This document shows positions 16,221 to 53,057 of a stretch of 56,723 bases of DNA, piece by piece. Under the pieces are notes generated by a model. That model worked only from the letters and a program-made list of their open reading frames with translations. It had not been told where the DNA came from and made no database searches. Each line of letters starts with the position of its first letter. Positions within the stretch are counted from its first letter, which is position 1. The DNA is from a virus, in IMG/VR virus record IMGVR_UViG_3300037246_000975, positions 1 to 56,723 of that record. One strand, given 5' to 3'. The translations under genes and the position numbers were made by a program.

Positions 16221-17324
16221 TTATGATGATTGTAGCCTCCATTCCCAACGGATTATATGAAGGCTTCCTTTGGGTCGGATGGGGATGCCTAAGATGCCCA
16301 TTGACTTTTTTACTCGGTTTAGGGTTGCGGAAGAATAACCCAAGTCTTTACCTTCCTCGAAGATTAGTTTGGAATCGACTGGGCCTTCGGACAGGAAGGA
16401 TTCGAGCCACTCGGAGGCGTCGGTTTGTTTGCGTGGGCGACCTCCGGGTTGCTTTCGGGGGGCCAAGAGTTCGGCGGCTGTTAGATGGACGGGTTCTTTC
16501 TCGAAACAGACTTGAGAGTAGAAGTCTTTCCTTTCGGTTCCGGGTTGTTGGACTAAGACGTTCATGAGGCGGTAGGCCAGGCCGGTGTTGCGGGGGCAGA
16601 GATTACCCTTGAGCCAAACCATGTAGCGGCGATCTTCGGCATCTGGGTCTTGGGCGATGAGCCAGCACATTCGGGCGGCGTTTTGTTGGCCTACGGAGCC
16701 GAGGAGTCGGAAGTCGGCGGATGAGTCCTCTTTTTTGTTGAGGTGGGTTATGCCAATCATGGCTAAGTTGTAATCCGCTGCGATTTCTCCAAGAGGACGG
16801 AGGAAACTCCTGACTGCTATATTGTCATTGGAATCGGCTCCTATACCCATATAAGAGGTGTAGGGGTCTATACCCACGAGTTTTGGGTTAGGGGCTTTGT
16901 CGAGGACTTCTATAAGCATATCTAAGTCGCCCGTTTTAGATTTAGAGAGATTGTCGATGCCCACGAGTCCGGTCTCGCCATTGTCCAGGGTTACTTTCTT
17001 GCCCTTGAGGATGCAGAGTCGGCTGATATCGGCCTGCATAGCCATTAGACGGGGTATTATTATGTCGCCCGGTTGATCTTCGGCGGAGAGCAGAATGCAG
17101 TCAGCGGGTTCTCGGGTTGTTCCGGGAGGGTCGTCAATCCAGGGTCGGCCCGTAGTTATTTGGGCAATCATGTATAGGAGAAGGGTTGACTTGCTGACTC
17201 CTCCGATTCCCGCCATTATAGCGAGCATTCGTAGAGGCCAGCGATTAGGCCAGAGCCAGTCGATAAATTCGACCTTAACTTTGTCGCCCCAGATAAAATC
17301 GGCTTCTTTTTTAACTATGCCCAC
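16221..17324 (-). CDS. RepA-like / AAA_25 RecA-fold helicase
   Basis: 367 residues, GTG at 17324 overlapping the preceding stop. A RecA-type core has Walker A GIGGVSKST (about residues 39-47), a Walker B strand LVGIDPYTSY near 150, the motif MIGITHLNKK near 195 and GSVGQQNAARM near 210, all as in RepA-like hexameric helicases of the AAA_25 group. Residues 300-360 form a winged-helix-like tail ending WEWRL. It probably unwinds phage DNA at the origin. The coding strand looks more C-rich than its neighbours, which could reflect separate acquisition. No primase is fused or adjacent. Confidence 0.85.
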   Translation of the reverse strand: MGIVKKEADFIWGDKVKVEFIDWLWPNRWPLRMLAIMAGIGGVSKSTLLLYMIAQITTGRPWIDDPPGTTREPADCILLSAEDQPGDIIIPRLMAMQADISRLCILKGKKVTLDNGETGLVGIDNLSKSKTGDLDMLIEVLDKAPNPKLVGIDPYTSYMGIGADSNDNIAVRSFLRPLGEIAADYNLAMIGITHLNKKEDSSADFRLLGSVGQQNAARMCWLIAQDPDAEDRRYMVWLKGNLCPRNTGLAYRLMNVLVQQPGTERKDFYSQVCFEKEPVHLTAAELLAPRKQPGGRPRKQTDASEWLESFLSEGPVDSKLIFEEGKDLGYSSATLNRVKKSMGILGIPIRPKGSLHIIRWEWRLQSS

Positions 17325-18519: not shown

Positions 18520-18707
18520 GAAAAATGTTGGCGACCGATGACATTCACCATTCTCATTCTTTAGTCATCCCAAGGTCGAACTCTTGTAATGCACCCGTTT
18601 AGCAAGATAAGGTACGTCTAAGTTCGTCATCAAAGGCAACTTGCTTTGCCATAGCAGAATTGGGACTGTAACCCAGTTCGTGTTCTACCACGCCGCCGCC
18701 AACTATA
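18520..18707 (-). ncRNA. candidate structured RNA 2 (about 185 nt)
   Basis: A consensus-like promoter (18713-18741) would start transcription near 18706. The 5' end GTTGGCGGC (18703-18695) pairs with the 3' end GTCGCCAAC (18535-18527) in a 9-bp closing helix with one G-U, and a T-rich tract follows directly. Inside are a TGGG/CCCA hairpin with a 7-nt loop, a GGCAA/TTGCC hairpin, and GATGAC/GTCATC long pairing (18631-18626 with 18542-18537). There is no credible coding frame: a 17-codon frame lacks a ribosome site. It is neither a full tRNA nor a tmRNA by eye. Confidence 0.6.
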
Positions 18708-18712
18708 TTTGT

Positions 18713-18741
18713 ATTATACCATATCGGGGGAAACCGATCAA
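18713..18741 (-). promoter_or_regulatory. promoter of RNA 2
   Basis: Minus strand TTGATC (18741-18736), 17 nt, TATAAT (18718-18713). The -10 box is perfect. Confidence 0.8.
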
Positions 18742-18752
18742 AGGTAAAATAT

Positions 18753-18900
18753 AAAAAAAGAGAGTCCGGCGTACTGCAACAATCCTAAACGGAGGGCCGC
18801 CATCCTTAATGCTGTTCTGACGGAGAGGGCTTTCGACCAACTCTCGCCTTATCATCTCACACAGGTGCGTGAATGACTTATAGGCCCGGGCTTCACGGCA
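18753..18900 (-). ncRNA. candidate structured RNA 1 (about 145 nt)
   Basis: Transcription from the promoter at 18906-18934 would start near 18900. The 5' part folds as a hairpin with CGTGAA/TTCACG arms (18897-18892 with 18873-18868) containing GCCCGGGC. The 3' part is closed by GAGAGT/ACTCTC (18845-18840 with 18765-18760) and runs straight into seven Ts (18759-18753), an intrinsic end. No ribosome site or convincing frame is seen. It shares the TGCGTGAAT core (opposite strand) with the 19-nt element near 22.3 and 24.2 kb. Confidence 0.58.
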
Positions 18901-18905
18901 ACTAT

Positions 18906-18934
18906 ATTGTAGCATACCGAGGGATGTCGGGCAA
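18906..18934 (-). promoter_or_regulatory. promoter of RNA 1
   Basis: Minus strand TTGCCC (18934-18929), 17 nt, TACAAT (18911-18906). Downstream initial sequence ATAGTTG matches that of the RNA 2 promoter. Confidence 0.65.
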
Positions 18935-18973: not shown

Positions 18974-19346
18974 TTATCGGACGGAAGCATACTCAGGCAT
19001 ACCTTATCGGACGTGAGGGAGACTTCGCTACTACGGGGACGTGCGGGGGACTGCGTGAATTTTGGCTCGGGAAATAAAAATGAGTTTAAGTGGGAGAGGT
19101 CTTTGACCTAACATTACCGGACGTTGCTGGGGGCCGATGGGGGGTTGCTGTGCAGGATATTATCGGACTCGGTGGTTATCGGACTAGGCATGATGGCTAC
19201 GGAGGTTGGATGTTATCGGCGATGTCCTATAACCCGGCAAGTATAACCGCAAGTCTTGAGGTGTAATGGACTTAGTTATCGGACAATTAGTTATTCAGAC
19301 TTATCGGACTTGACTGGACAATTGGTTATTCAGACACTTATCGGAC
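18974..19346 (+). repeat. TTATCGGAC repeat island (candidate origin or iteron array)
   Basis: Exact TTATCGGAC copies start at 18974, 19004, 19160, 19176, 19276, 19301 and 19338. Related copies are TTACCGGAC (19114), TTATCGGCG (19213), TTATTCAGAC (19291, 19326) and, inverted, TTATAGGAC (19232-19224). The last part is a ~35-nt tandem unit (19281-19309 and 19316-19346). No gene is seen from 18916 to 19440. Iteron-type origins look like this, but a regulator array is equally possible. Confidence 0.7.
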
Positions 19347-19440: not shown

Positions 19441-19701
19441 CTAACAGTTATCAACCAATTCTATCCTATACCCAAGACAACGACTAACAGTTCCGTTGTC
19501 CCATGTCACCTCAAATCCTGCTGAAATACCCCGGGATTTATTTGCTTGCAATATTGCCGTAATTGTACCCCGCTCATTACAAGCTTTTTGATATGCTTGT
19601 TTGGCATTAGATTTCGCAGGTTCACGTCCTAAACTTTGCCAATAGTCTCGTTTCCCCTTAAGGCTATATCCACTTTGTTTTACTCTGTCTTCGATTTTCA
19701 T
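19441..19701 (-). CDS. 86-residue basic hypothetical protein
   Basis: From the ATG at 19701 (AAAGAGGTATAAA upstream). The N-terminal 50 residues are Lys/Arg/Gln-rich and helical (KIEDRVKQSGYSLKGKRDYW), the rest has short strands (FEVTWDNGTVSRCLGYRIEL). It is the last gene before the repeat island, so a DNA-binding role there is conceivable. No family recognised. Confidence 0.6.
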   Translation of the reverse strand: MKIEDRVKQSGYSLKGKRDYWQSLGREPAKSNAKQAYQKACNERGTITAILQANKSRGISAGFEVTWDNGTVSRCLGYRIELVDNC

Positions 19702-22138: not shown

Positions 22139-22167
22139 TTGACTACCGTTATCAAATCTGTTACAAT
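22139..22167 (+). promoter_or_regulatory. plus-strand promoter
   Basis: TTGACT (22139-22144), 17 nt, TACAAT (22162-22167), facing the opposite way to all genes. It would transcribe the TTATCGGAC copies and the 19-nt element, ending at the hairpin at 22328-22367. Confidence 0.75.
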
Positions 22168-22199: not shown

Positions 22200-22311
22200 T
22201 TATAGGACGTGCCGATTATCGGACGTTGTGTCCCGCCACGCAGATTATCGGACTATCCCCCAGACTCATTCCTGATACTGCGTGAATTTCCACTCGCGGA
22301 GTTATTCAGAC
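22200..22311 (+). repeat. TTATCGGAC repeat island 2
   Basis: TTATAGGAC (22200), TTATCGGAC (22216, 22245), TTATTCAGAC (22302), plus the 19-nt element at 22277-22295 shared exactly with 24244-24262. Confidence 0.7.
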
Positions 22312-22327: not shown

Positions 22328-22367
22328 AAGGCCGCCCAGACTACTGACACCCCAGACGGCCTTTTCT
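22328..22367. terminator. bidirectional hairpin terminator
   Basis: AAGGCCG (22328-22334) and CGGCCTT (22357-22363) form a 7-bp stem with a 22-nt loop. TTCT follows on plus, and AGCTTTT on minus. It lies between two convergent promoters. Confidence 0.6.
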
Positions 22368-24108: not shown

Positions 24109-24137
24109 TTGACTATCCTTTAGATATGTGATACAAT
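24109..24137 (+). promoter_or_regulatory. plus-strand promoter
   Basis: TTGACT (24109-24114), 17 nt, TACAAT (24132-24137), the same boxes as at 22139. It points through repeat island 3 and antisense into 24261-24428. Confidence 0.75.
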
Positions 24138-24170: not shown

Positions 24171-24262
24171 TTATCGGTCGTAATAGTTATCGGACTGTCC
24201 TCCGCAGAACATTATAGGACTAATCCCCGTAGGTGTTTATCAGACTGCGTGAATTTCCACTC
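24171..24262 (+). repeat. TTATCGGAC repeat island 3
   Basis: TTATCGGTC (24171), TTATCGGAC (24187), TTATAGGAC (24212), TTATCAGAC (24237) and the 19-nt element ACTGCGTGAATTTCCACTC (24244-24262), which touches the stop codon of 24261-24428. A 9-mer copy sits at 24199-24207. Confidence 0.7.
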
Positions 24263-24428
24263 ACCATTTCAAAACCCGCCCTGACCGCCGAATCAATCCG
24301 TCTTGTTTTAACATGGCGTAGCATGTAATAAATTCAATGTGGTTTATCTCTCCGGTAGCATAAGCCCATCGTAAATCCTCTTCGGCCCGGCTAACGGTTC
24401 GCGGTCTACGTTTACTACCTTTACTCAT
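24261..24428 (-). CDS. 55-residue basic protein
   Basis: ATG at 24428 overlapping the stop of 24425-24661; GGAGG lies 11 nt upstream. Arg-rich N-terminus (MSKGSKRRPRTVSR) followed by a helical region (AEEDLRWAYATGEIN) with winged-helix flavour ending in LIRRSGRVLKW. Possible DNA-binding regulator of the neighbouring repeat island (inference). Confidence 0.6.
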   Translation of the reverse strand: MSKGSKRRPRTVSRAEEDLRWAYATGEINHIEFITCYAMLKQDGLIRRSGRVLKW

Positions 24429-50040: not shown

Positions 50041-51237
50041 TTAAAACAATTCTCTCCAGGTTACTTGAGCATCTATAGTCGCACTATTAGCACTACTTCC
50101 TGCGATTGTTAATGTATCTCCGGGATTTAGGATTATTTTACTTTGTATTAACCCTATTCTAAAGCTATCATTTTTACCCGCGAGAAAATCACCTTCTAAC
50201 TCTTTACCACCTGTTATTGTTCCGTCAGTATCTATTTCTATAACAGAATTATTTGTATCTATATCAGACCAAGACGGCGACCCTCCAATGGCTGCGTTCT
50301 TTATGATTCTCACAGTAGCAAGATTGTTTGTTGCGTTTGCCTCAACACTTGCCCCCACTGCCAATAAAATAACGTCTATAAAGTTGGTCTTGGTGGCATA
50401 CGCTGCTTTATTTCTAATAGTAAGTATGACTGTTTCTGCTGTTACTGTTGTTTTTTCTTTTTTTCCCGATGAGTTTTCAGGTTGGTGCAATTCTATAAAT
50501 GAAGTTCTTCCTTCTATAAAAAAAGCGTAAGATGATGACTTTATTATTAAATCATCTGTAGTAGCTTTATTATTTACCCACATTGTATAAAAGAAATTAG
50601 GATTATACACCGACGGTACTACATTAAGATTAGCATAAAGGATTGTATGAACAACAACAAGCTCTCCTGTGCTATCATCTTCTATACATAATTGAATTTT
50701 ACCCGCCCCAAGATATTGAAATCTAATTTCCCATACATTCAAATTTGTTTTAACAAGGGTCATTCCTGAAGCCCCATTACCATCCAGAGGGTCATCCCAA
50801 TTAGCTTGGGTCACTGTCACCAGTGTATCATTTACCCACCTGTGAAAACCAAAGGTAGTGCCGTTGTATCCTATACCATACCCGTTCTCAAATGCCTGAG
50901 AGCTACCTCTTTCATCCATTATACCAGCATACTGTTCTGTAGCAGCAACAGGAGAAGTAAATAATGCGGTAAACCTCATGTTCCCACCAAGTCCAGGGCG
51001 ATATTTTGCGTGCTGTTTGCTTTGGAATAGTGCTGTGCTGGCTGTGGTTATTGAACTCCCGACAACAGCCATCCCTGATGCTTGAGTTACAGTTCCCCCA
51101 TCTTCAACAGTATTTGTATTCAAATCTGTATTACTTACAGTGTATTCAAAACTTCCTTGAAATTGAGGATGTAATTCACCCACTAATGATTCGCCAAAAG
51201 CCGTTTTGACACTCTCTTTGAAAGGTTTATATGTCAT
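50041..51237 (-). CDS. fibre-type structural protein
   Basis: 398 residues from ATG 51237, which overlaps the previous stop (TAATG). Beta-rich with a LamG/jelly-roll-like middle (ITTASTALFQSKQHAKYRPG, GYGIGYNGTTFGFHRWVND) and a C-terminal Ig-like region (TVTAETVILTIRNKAAYA). Probably a tail-fibre or receptor-binding subunit that assembles with the propeller fibre encoded upstream. Confidence 0.62.
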   Translation of the reverse strand: MTYKPFKESVKTAFGESLVGELHPQFQGSFEYTVSNTDLNTNTVEDGGTVTQASGMAVVGSSITTASTALFQSKQHAKYRPGLGGNMRFTALFTSPVAATEQYAGIMDERGSSQAFENGYGIGYNGTTFGFHRWVNDTLVTVTQANWDDPLDGNGASGMTLVKTNLNVWEIRFQYLGAGKIQLCIEDDSTGELVVVHTILYANLNVVPSVYNPNFFYTMWVNNKATTDDLIIKSSSYAFFIEGRTSFIELHQPENSSGKKEKTTVTAETVILTIRNKAAYATKTNFIDVILLAVGASVEANATNNLATVRIIKNAAIGGSPSWSDIDTNNSVIEIDTDGTITGGKELEGDFLAGKNDSFRIGLIQSKIILNPGDTLTIAGSSANSATIDAQVTWRELF

Positions 51238-53057
51238 TATAATATCCACCATTCTGAACCATCACTTTGAATAGTGATTGATTCATATTGTACTGTTAAA
51301 ACAGCCGTTAAACCATCATCTATTGTTTCACTTGAATTTCCATCTACCGTGACAGTATTAGCAGAGGAATCTATTTTTTTTATGTAATATATCCTACCTG
51401 TATGAGAAGCCGCCGCAGGTAATGTTATTGTAAATGCACCCCCCGAAGCATTACATAAAATAGTATAGTCAGTAGCGGTAGCAGTGTAACCACTTGTTTT
51501 AGTTCTCAGATTACCAATAAAACCTTTTGTTTCTACTGTACCCGTAAATGTCCCACCAACCCAAGTGGGACTATCCCCTGTTCCCAATCCTAAAGTAGTC
51601 GCCTGTGCCGCTGCATTTGCATCATCTAATATAGCTCGCCCTGCGGAGGTTAGAGCAGATTCGGCCCAAGTAGCTTCAGAATAAAGTGTAGTCTCTACTC
51701 CTGTATATAATCTTCCACCATCATTTCCCACTATCAAATTACTTCCATCCGCATCAGAAGCTACCCCATGCCAATCTTTATCTGCATCCCCAGCTGGTTG
51801 TTGTTCAGTCCAAGTTACTCCATAATCATCGGATGTATATAACCTTAAACTATTCCCGGCTACTAAATGACTTCCATCAGAGTCAGATGCCACTCGTCTC
51901 CATTCTTTATCTACGTCTCCGGCTGGTTGTCTCTCTGTCCAGTTAACTCCGTAGTTTGCTGATGTATATAGCCTTAAACTATTTCCCGCTATCAAATGAG
52001 ACCCATCATCGTCAGAAGCTACACTATACCAATCCTTATTAGCGGCCCCGGCTGGTTGTCTCTCTGTCCAGTTAACTCCGTAGTTAGCCGATGTATATAA
52101 CCTCCCCCCATCATTTCCAACTATTAAATGAGAACCATCAGCATCAGAAGCTACCCCCTCCCAATTTTCATCAAAGTCTCCAGCAGGTTGTCGCTCTGTC
52201 CAGTTAGCCCCAGAATTGGCAGATGTCCATAGTCTCCCAATAAATTCCCCTGCTATCAAATGACTTCCATCTGAATCAGATGCTACTCCCCACCAATTCT
52301 TATTTGCGTCTCCAGCAGGTTGTCGCTCTGTCCAGTTAGCCCCAGAATTGGCAGATGTCCATAGTCTCCCAATAGTTGCATTTCCAGCTATTAAATTACT
52401 CCCGTCATCATCGGAAGCCACCCCAGACCAATTCATATTGGTATCCCCCCCCGGTCGTCTCTCTGTCCAATTAGCTCCTGAGTCAGCCGATGTCCATAGC
52501 CTACCTGGTCTTGCCCCGGCTATTAAATGTGAGCCGTCTGCATCAGAAGCTAATCCATACCAATCTTCATTTGCATCTCCTTTGGGTTGTCTTTCTACCC
52601 AAACAATTTCGGTATATGTATTATAAGCATTGGTATAAATCAGTCTGTTGGCGGCTGTACCAAGGTCATTTATTAAATCAAGATTGTGAGGGAGTGCTGC
52701 CAAGAAATTAGAGTTCTGAGGCAGATTCAAACCCATGACAGTAATTATCCCCGGTAATCCTTGTGGCCCCGGAAGTCCTTGTAGACCTCTTGGCCCCTCT
52801 GCTCCAAAGGAAATTCCACCCCCCTCCGCAGGGATTAAACTACTGGCTAAATCTTTTAATTGAGTTTCTCGGTCGGGGATTATTCCGTAGTCCCCATACC
52901 GTCTCGCAGTGCTTCCGCCACCCCAGGGAGTAACTATTCCGAAGCCGTCTACGAATTGCGGATTATCAATCCCGGGGAGGAACAATCCTTGAAGTCGAGG
53001 GGATGGCCCTGCTGTAATGTCGCTGCTTTCTCCGGAAGAGGTAAATACTTCACTCAC
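51237..53057 (-). CDS. seven-bladed BNR-type beta-propeller tail fibre
   Basis: 606 residues, GTG start at 53057 (GAGGGAGATAGTT). Residues 88-104 are collagen-like GxY (GPRGLQGLPGPQGLPG). Residues 150-460 are seven repeats of ~44 residues, each with NWTERQPAGD, GVASDxDGSHLI and GRLWTSANSG, i.e. Asp-box (SxDxGxTW-like) blades. The C-terminus has a fibre-tip domain with a spacer (FTITLPAAASHTGRIYYIKK, ESITIQSDGSEWWIL). A receptor-binding fibre that recognises surface glycans is likely. Sialidase catalytic residues are not asserted. Confidence 0.85.
   Translation of the reverse strand: MSEVFTSSGESSDITAGPSPRLQGLFLPGIDNPQFVDGFGIVTPWGGGSTARRYGDYGIIPDRETQLKDLASSLIPAEGGGISFGAEGPRGLQGLPGPQGLPGIITVMGLNLPQNSNFLAALPHNLDLINDLGTAANRLIYTNAYNTYTEIVWVERQPKGDANEDWYGLASDADGSHLIAGARPGRLWTSADSGANWTERRPGGDTNMNWSGVASDDDGSNLIAGNATIGRLWTSANSGANWTERQPAGDANKNWWGVASDSDGSHLIAGEFIGRLWTSANSGANWTERQPAGDFDENWEGVASDADGSHLIVGNDGGRLYTSANYGVNWTERQPAGAANKDWYSVASDDDGSHLIAGNSLRLYTSANYGVNWTERQPAGDVDKEWRRVASDSDGSHLVAGNSLRLYTSDDYGVTWTEQQPAGDADKDWHGVASDADGSNLIVGNDGGRLYTGVETTLYSEATWAESALTSAGRAILDDANAAAQATTLGLGTGDSPTWVGGTFTGTVETKGFIGNLRTKTSGYTATATDYTILCNASGGAFTITLPAAASHTGRIYYIKKIDSSANTVTVDGNSSETIDDGLTAVLTVQYESITIQSDGSEWWIL
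51690..52607 (-). repeat. coding tandem repeats of the propeller (7 units, ~132 nt)
   Basis: Neighbouring units share long blocks at the DNA level (for example ctctgtccag around 51930, 52065, 52195, 52328), so units could recombine and change number. Confidence 0.8.

Follow-up and report, generated by a model that had tools for sequence, protein, structure and literature searches.

The genome of one phage (IMG/VR virus record IMGVR_UViG_3300037246_000975, positions 1 to 56,723; this whole stretch of 56,723 nucleotides is called the window here) carries a gene-free island crowded with copies of one short word, TTATCGGAC, and the question that this locus raises is what such an island does for the phage. 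The original prediction read it as a candidate replication origin of the iteron kind. Iteron-type origins include lambda ori, which is bound by the O protein, and those of iteron plasmids, e.g. RSF1010 with its RepC iterons and RepA helicase, and iterons are normally specific to one replicon. Our comparisons across viral contigs suggest that this island, together with others like it, is a candidate cluster of binding boxes for a sequence-specific, double-stranded-DNA-binding protein. An initiator-binding replication origin, or an initiator-loading region, is the best of the explanations tested, and we would give it about an even chance of being correct.

Three islands in the window

The features of the first island and its surroundings are as follows.

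16221..17324, - strand: RepA-like (AAA_25) replicative helicase gene (PF13481, E 5e-27; PHROG primase/helicase)
18713..18741, - strand: second leftward promoter-like site, TTGATC-N17-TATAAT (consensus match)
18906..18934, - strand: leftward promoter-like site adjoining island 1, towards the helicase operon (consensus match)
18974..19346, + strand: island 1, seven exact TTATCGGAC copies and variants; conserved in L026 and L066, partly in L022
19050..19069, + strand: third copy of the shared element ACTGCGTGAATTT... (family D5), within island 1
19089..19111, + strand: short inverted repeat GAGGTCTTTGACC of island 1, conserved and nearly invariant in four relatives
19114: variant box TTACCGGAC (box scan)
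19213: variant box TTATCGGCG, facing GTCCTATAA at 19224
19224, - strand: variant box TTATAGGAC, appearing as GTCCTATAA and facing the box at 19213
about 19291 and 19326: variant boxes TTATTCAGAC
19281..19335, + strand: 35-nt direct repeat GGACAATTRGTTATTCAGAC (D11; repeat search)

Most of the predicted architecture was recovered: the seven exact boxes, all on the + strand (18974, 19004, 19160, 19176, 19276, 19301 and 19338), the variant boxes (TTACCGGAC, TTATCGGCG, TTATAGGAC and TTATTCAGAC), the tandem repeat of about 35 nt that closes the island (19281-19300 / 19316-19335, 95%), the lack of any open reading frame of at least 60 aa between 18,916 and 19,440, and the RepA-like helicase some 1.6 kb away, the AAA_25 gene ending 1.65 kb from island 1. 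Several copies of a short box thus lie inside a non-coding island, as would be expected of an iteron-type origin. Over the whole window the exact word occurs 10 times against 0.36 expected, a count reached in none of 100 shuffles, and no 9-mer of the window is more strongly clustered; every box with a score above 14 bits is situated between 18,974 and 24,212. The flanking signals that had been proposed fared less evenly, since promoter-like sites are present on the - strand (18934-18906 and 18741-18713, as consensus matches only) but no strong terminator lies directly at island 1. In the adjoining stretch from 18520 to 18905, on the - strand, the two leftward promoter-like sites, with a T run near 18,750 at the end of the nearer stretch, suggest one or two short untranslated leftward transcripts beside the island.

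Two further islands, absent from the original prediction, were found at 22,200-22,310 and 24,171-24,245.

22139..22167, + strand: rightward promoter TTGACT-N17-TACAAT with TG, before island 2; alignable with the island 3 promoters of relatives
22200..22311, + strand: island 2, with TTATAGGAC at 22200, TTATCGGAC at 22216 and 22245, and TTATTCAGAC at about 22302
22277..22296, + strand: element ACTGCGTGAATTTCCACTCG, closing island 2
22328..22367, + strand: terminator-like inverted repeat AAGGCCG...CGGCCTTTTCT after island 2 (by eye)
24109..24137, + strand: rightward promoter TTGACT-N17-TACAAT with TG, before island 3; same promoter in L508 and L239
24171..24245, + strand: island 3, with TTATCGGTC at 24171, TTATCGGAC at 24187, TTATAGGAC at 24212 and TTATCAGAC at 24237
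24244..24262, + strand: element ACTGCGTGAATTTCCACTC, closing island 3

Each of these islands holds three or four + strand boxes behind a TTGACT-N17-TGnTACAAT promoter that runs rightward, against all genes, and ACTGCGTGAATTTCCACTC lies inside or at the end of each. The unit of promoter plus boxes at island 3 recurs in L508 and L239, and also in L066, there without an aligned -35 region; across these relatives the promoter and the closing element are constant, and box number and spacing vary. On the - strand, a 55-aa reading frame (24261-24428) runs right up to the closing element of island 3, and L066 has a similar frame, noted by eye, in the corresponding position.

Islands 2 and 3 each follow closely on a conserved promoter, and every box in them points the way that transcription would run. 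This placement is what brings in the main rival of the origin reading, namely an operator or stoperator-like array, in which early transcription would be shut off by a repressor or an elongation-blocking protein bound to asymmetric boxes within and behind the promoters. Cluster A mycobacteriophages provide the known case; their stoperators are present in large number, asymmetric and aligned with transcription (PMC9283540). Against this explanation, which we hold to be possible at a clearly lower probability than an origin, the boxes of island 1 are antisense to all neighbouring genes. A non-exhaustive family search recognised no phage-encoded helix-turn-helix repressor near the islands.

Conservation beside the helicase gene

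One check proposed for the origin reading was conservation of the island next to the helicase in related phages. Four contigs (L026, L066, L022 and L077) are members of the window's phage group, here group C, with the terminase and its neighbours in common. Island 1 is kept base for base over long stretches in L026 and L066 and in part in L022, and L077 has a box cluster with a GGGGGCCGA element. The distance from the island to the AAA_25 helicase gene is 0.8-1.0 kb in L026 and L066 and 1.65 kb in the window, so that the island is kept 0.8-1.7 kb from the helicase in all three group members that have the AAA_25 gene. G015, G018 and G031 all bear islands, but no AAA_25 helicase was found in them, which counts against an origin.

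The word across viral contigs

A search of 2.9 million viral contigs for three copies of TTATCGGAC in a row, using reversed and shuffled words as controls, returned 63 stretches, compared with 11 for the reversed word and 11 for the shuffled word. In several contigs the exact word is present 15-44 times and the reversed word 0-3 times. Among the phages bearing the boxes, three groups with different core genes are prominent, and motif models learned separately for groups A, B and C agree on an R before TTAT, a fifth position that is C with some A, then GGAC, a base other than A, and T, giving the extended motif RTTAT(C/a)GGAC(no A)T. Some accessory genes have been exchanged among the three groups, and neither BLAST nor family HMMs detected a protein family common to all box-bearing phages. 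Among the literature matches listed, TTATCGGAC was not recognised as a phage or origin motif. Within the large gene at 51,237-53,057 of the window, repeats of about 130 bp were noted (51754-52543), and the product of this gene is also present in group B phages.

Group A consists mostly of large contigs, up to 180 kb, with one box-packed region of about 1.5-5 kb; some 700 degenerate sites were counted in this group, in dense regions that run through small coding genes. These boxes are nearly all co-directional with the genes that they traverse and overlap start codons, which favors a stoperator-like array. Group B, with terminase kinship to Pseudomonas phage YuA (in which no box cluster was present in the 16 kb examined), has its main island a few kb upstream of the terminase genes, and both box orientations are mixed within one island, which speaks against such an array. 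Orientation is fixed relative to transcription for group A and islands 2 and 3, and not for group B or island 1. The numerous asymmetric sites that follow transcription in the former resemble the operators and stoperators of Cluster A (PMC9283540). The Cluster A sites are 13-mers spread through the genome rather than dense islands, and box orientation here is independent of transcription in group B and island 1. The use of the same word by phages with different core genes is a further argument against repression, as repressor specificities normally diverge. On the other side of the ledger, hundreds of degenerate boxes inside small genes, as in group A, are unusual for an origin, and three islands in the window together with about 700 degenerate sites in group A exceed the needs of a classical origin.

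Several other occurrences of repeated boxes were recorded. The box region of a 179-kb phage contains a 17-bp tandem repeat of about 12 or more units (L255:8443-8640). A group A phage segment with 14 boxes is found beside an N gap in a Heimdallarchaeota chromosome record (L164; CP070695.1, 92.1-93.6 kb), a location that may reflect misassembly or integration. Matches to TTATCGGAC in bacterial genomes were set aside. Most are tandem repeats, of which some are coding (MSDK repeats) and others lie between genes in Bacillales and have a 21-bp period; the Bacillales chromosomes concerned (L129, L140, L156, L158, L171, L183 and L186) carry mostly intergenic TTATCGGACA arrays with this period and variable spacers. 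In two planctomycete assemblies (L139:7380-7450 and L207:1867-1921), three TTATCGGAC boxes at 22-23 bp spacing lie just upstream of tyrosine-recombinase-like integrase genes, which were named by eye and have no Pfam match, and tRNA/tmRNA-like att regions adjoin. These triplets at att-like sites were also set aside, as a separate system by its look, in which homologous integrases carry related but different words.

Probably DNA rather than RNA

The strong rightward promoter at islands 2 and 3, and the terminator-like repeat at island 2, would also suit short non-coding RNAs in which a repeated UUAUCGGAC titrates an RNA-binding protein. We regard this as improbable. The Rfam search gave no match, RNA folding z-scores were near 0 to -1 for most islands, with outliers of -2.1 in island 1 (19,090-19,236) and of -4.3 in one group B contig (L113, 3,840-3,985), the latter due to an inverted box pair, and no consistent complementary flanks or conserved pairing were seen around 482 box copies; the conserved secondary structure of a structured non-coding RNA family thus appeared in none of these three analyses.

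The spacing of the boxes points to DNA instead. Group B spacings peak at 14, 16, 26 and 34-36 bp and those of group A at 25, 27 and 34 bp; in both groups they are phased at about 10.5 bp (p < 0.001, a significance inflated by related phages being counted together), i.e. in register with the DNA helix, as in an iteron-type origin; for the window's group alone the phasing is borderline (0.05). Given the mixed orientations in group B, the helical phasing and a mostly ordinary predicted RNA structure, the word is, as judged from its sequence pattern, read as double-stranded DNA.

Strand composition at the islands

Conventional replication origins are skew minima. Cumulative GC skew, which had been proposed as a check, gave a detrended maximum for the window at 19,500. 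Of all same-strand third-position steps in the window, that at 19,250 is the largest (rank 1 of 155), with gene strand unchanged. The third-position skew of - strand genes is +0.23 to the left of the island and -0.26 to the right; such a switch with no change in gene strand argues against a stoperator-like array. In the 179.5-kb contig G053, the skew minimum (8.25 kb) is beside the array and the maximum (90.25 kb) is near half of the genome, with third-position values for + and - genes of -0.14/-0.10 on one side and +0.15/+0.10 on the other, so that the skew changes sign close to the array for genes of either strand, which match in each half (about -0.12 and +0.12). The window and G053 are two cases in which replication can be told apart from gene direction. 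At the island, the same-strand step agreed in G031 (rank 4 of 66) and did not in G024 (rank 40 of 99).

In 24 contigs, the position of the densest box cluster was compared with the extremum of detrended cumulative GC skew, with random positions as the baseline. Clusters were near a minimum or maximum more often than random positions (Fisher p about 3e-6 over contigs that are partly related and not independent), with p below 0.1 in 10 of the 24 contigs and no association in four (G011, G012, G019 and G055). A strand-composition switch at the island, as an iteron-type origin would have, is therefore present with a polarity that varies by group: a minimum in group A, G007, G013, G022 and G023, and a maximum in the window's group and three group B contigs. 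This inconsistent polarity, with a maximum in the window and several others and a minimum in group A, is evidence against an origin. In the phages with a maximum, either strand asymmetry is reversed or the island has another role.

The terminus polarity of the window's maximum is one reason to consider another kind of nucleoprotein site, i.e. a centromere-like partition site, a packaging site or a replication-terminus region; the main island of group B a few kb upstream of terminase genes, and the dense oriented boxes of group A, which resemble a coated region, point the same way. This too we rate as quite unlikely, given that polarity in group A is that of an origin, the opposite extremum of G053 is near half of its genome, the window's terminase is 8-10 kb away, and no ParA/ParB-type gene was noticed beside the islands in a non-systematic look.

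A candidate origin and its possible reader

The claim of a candidate origin is thereby upheld in part. The skew extremum and the conservation beside the helicase stand in its favor, but the extremum in the window is a maximum, the helicase is missing near the homologous islands of other relatives and no initiator was found. What the sequences show is the boxes, their helical phasing, their sharing across groups with different core genes and their tendency to lie at strand-composition switches. Several short boxes in a gene-poor island, a replicative helicase gene nearby, helical phasing and a skew switch are all features of iteron-type origins; unlike in those, one word here serves phage groups with different core genes, the boxes are irregularly spaced and lie in several islands, and no initiator accompanies them. 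If the islands are origins, a protein would bind many boxes cooperatively, wrap or melt the neighbouring DNA and recruit the replicative helicase (RepA-like in the window's phage), and transcription from the conserved rightward promoters of islands 2 and 3 may pass across the boxes, activating or priming initiation.

The helicase is present near island 1, and no initiator family was recognised there. Because no protein family is common to all box-bearing phages, we infer that the reader either is encoded by the host or has diverged beyond detection; the use of one word by groups whose core genes differ makes a host protein attractive. The word had been described as differing from the DnaA box by a few bases, and TTATC is indeed in common, but the remainder differs, with GGAC instead of CACA, so that the DnaA-box consensus TTWTNCACA does not describe TTATCGGAC. 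Canonical DnaA boxes are not clustered at the island. The clusters of TTATCCACA at bacterial oriC are similar in that an asymmetric 9-mer starting with TTATC occurs in both orientations and several times per cluster, and the canonical form likewise gives triple arrays at high frequency in viral contigs (at least 120); the difference lies in the last four bases, and in the phage contigs no phage-encoded DnaA domain IV (DnaA_C) was found.

In some planctomycetes (L259, L260, L355, L357-L360 and L371), DnaA paralogues with an altered recognition helix (GRPNHST/GRPNHSS, GGRNHSS) stand beside or replace the canonical GGRDHTT form, and one planctomycete assembly includes a related phage contig (L147). 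It is conceivable, though on our estimate unlikely, that RTTATCGGAC is the common origin box of three or more phage lineages whose core genes differ, and that a single initiator-like protein of the host reads it in all of them, e.g. an altered-helix DnaA paralogue (GRPNHST or GGRNHSS versus GGRDHTT) of some planctomycetes, in which case the boxes would be private and unseen by the main host DnaA. Because the 14 planctomycete chromosomes examined have no box clusters, a second planctomycete DnaA is put forward as the reader by way of conjecture.

Taken together, one conserved DNA word marks islands in phages with few common core genes and tends to mark a strand-composition switch. If it is an origin box, it would allow origins to be placed from sequence alone in many uncultured phages, and would point to a shared, so far undescribed initiator.
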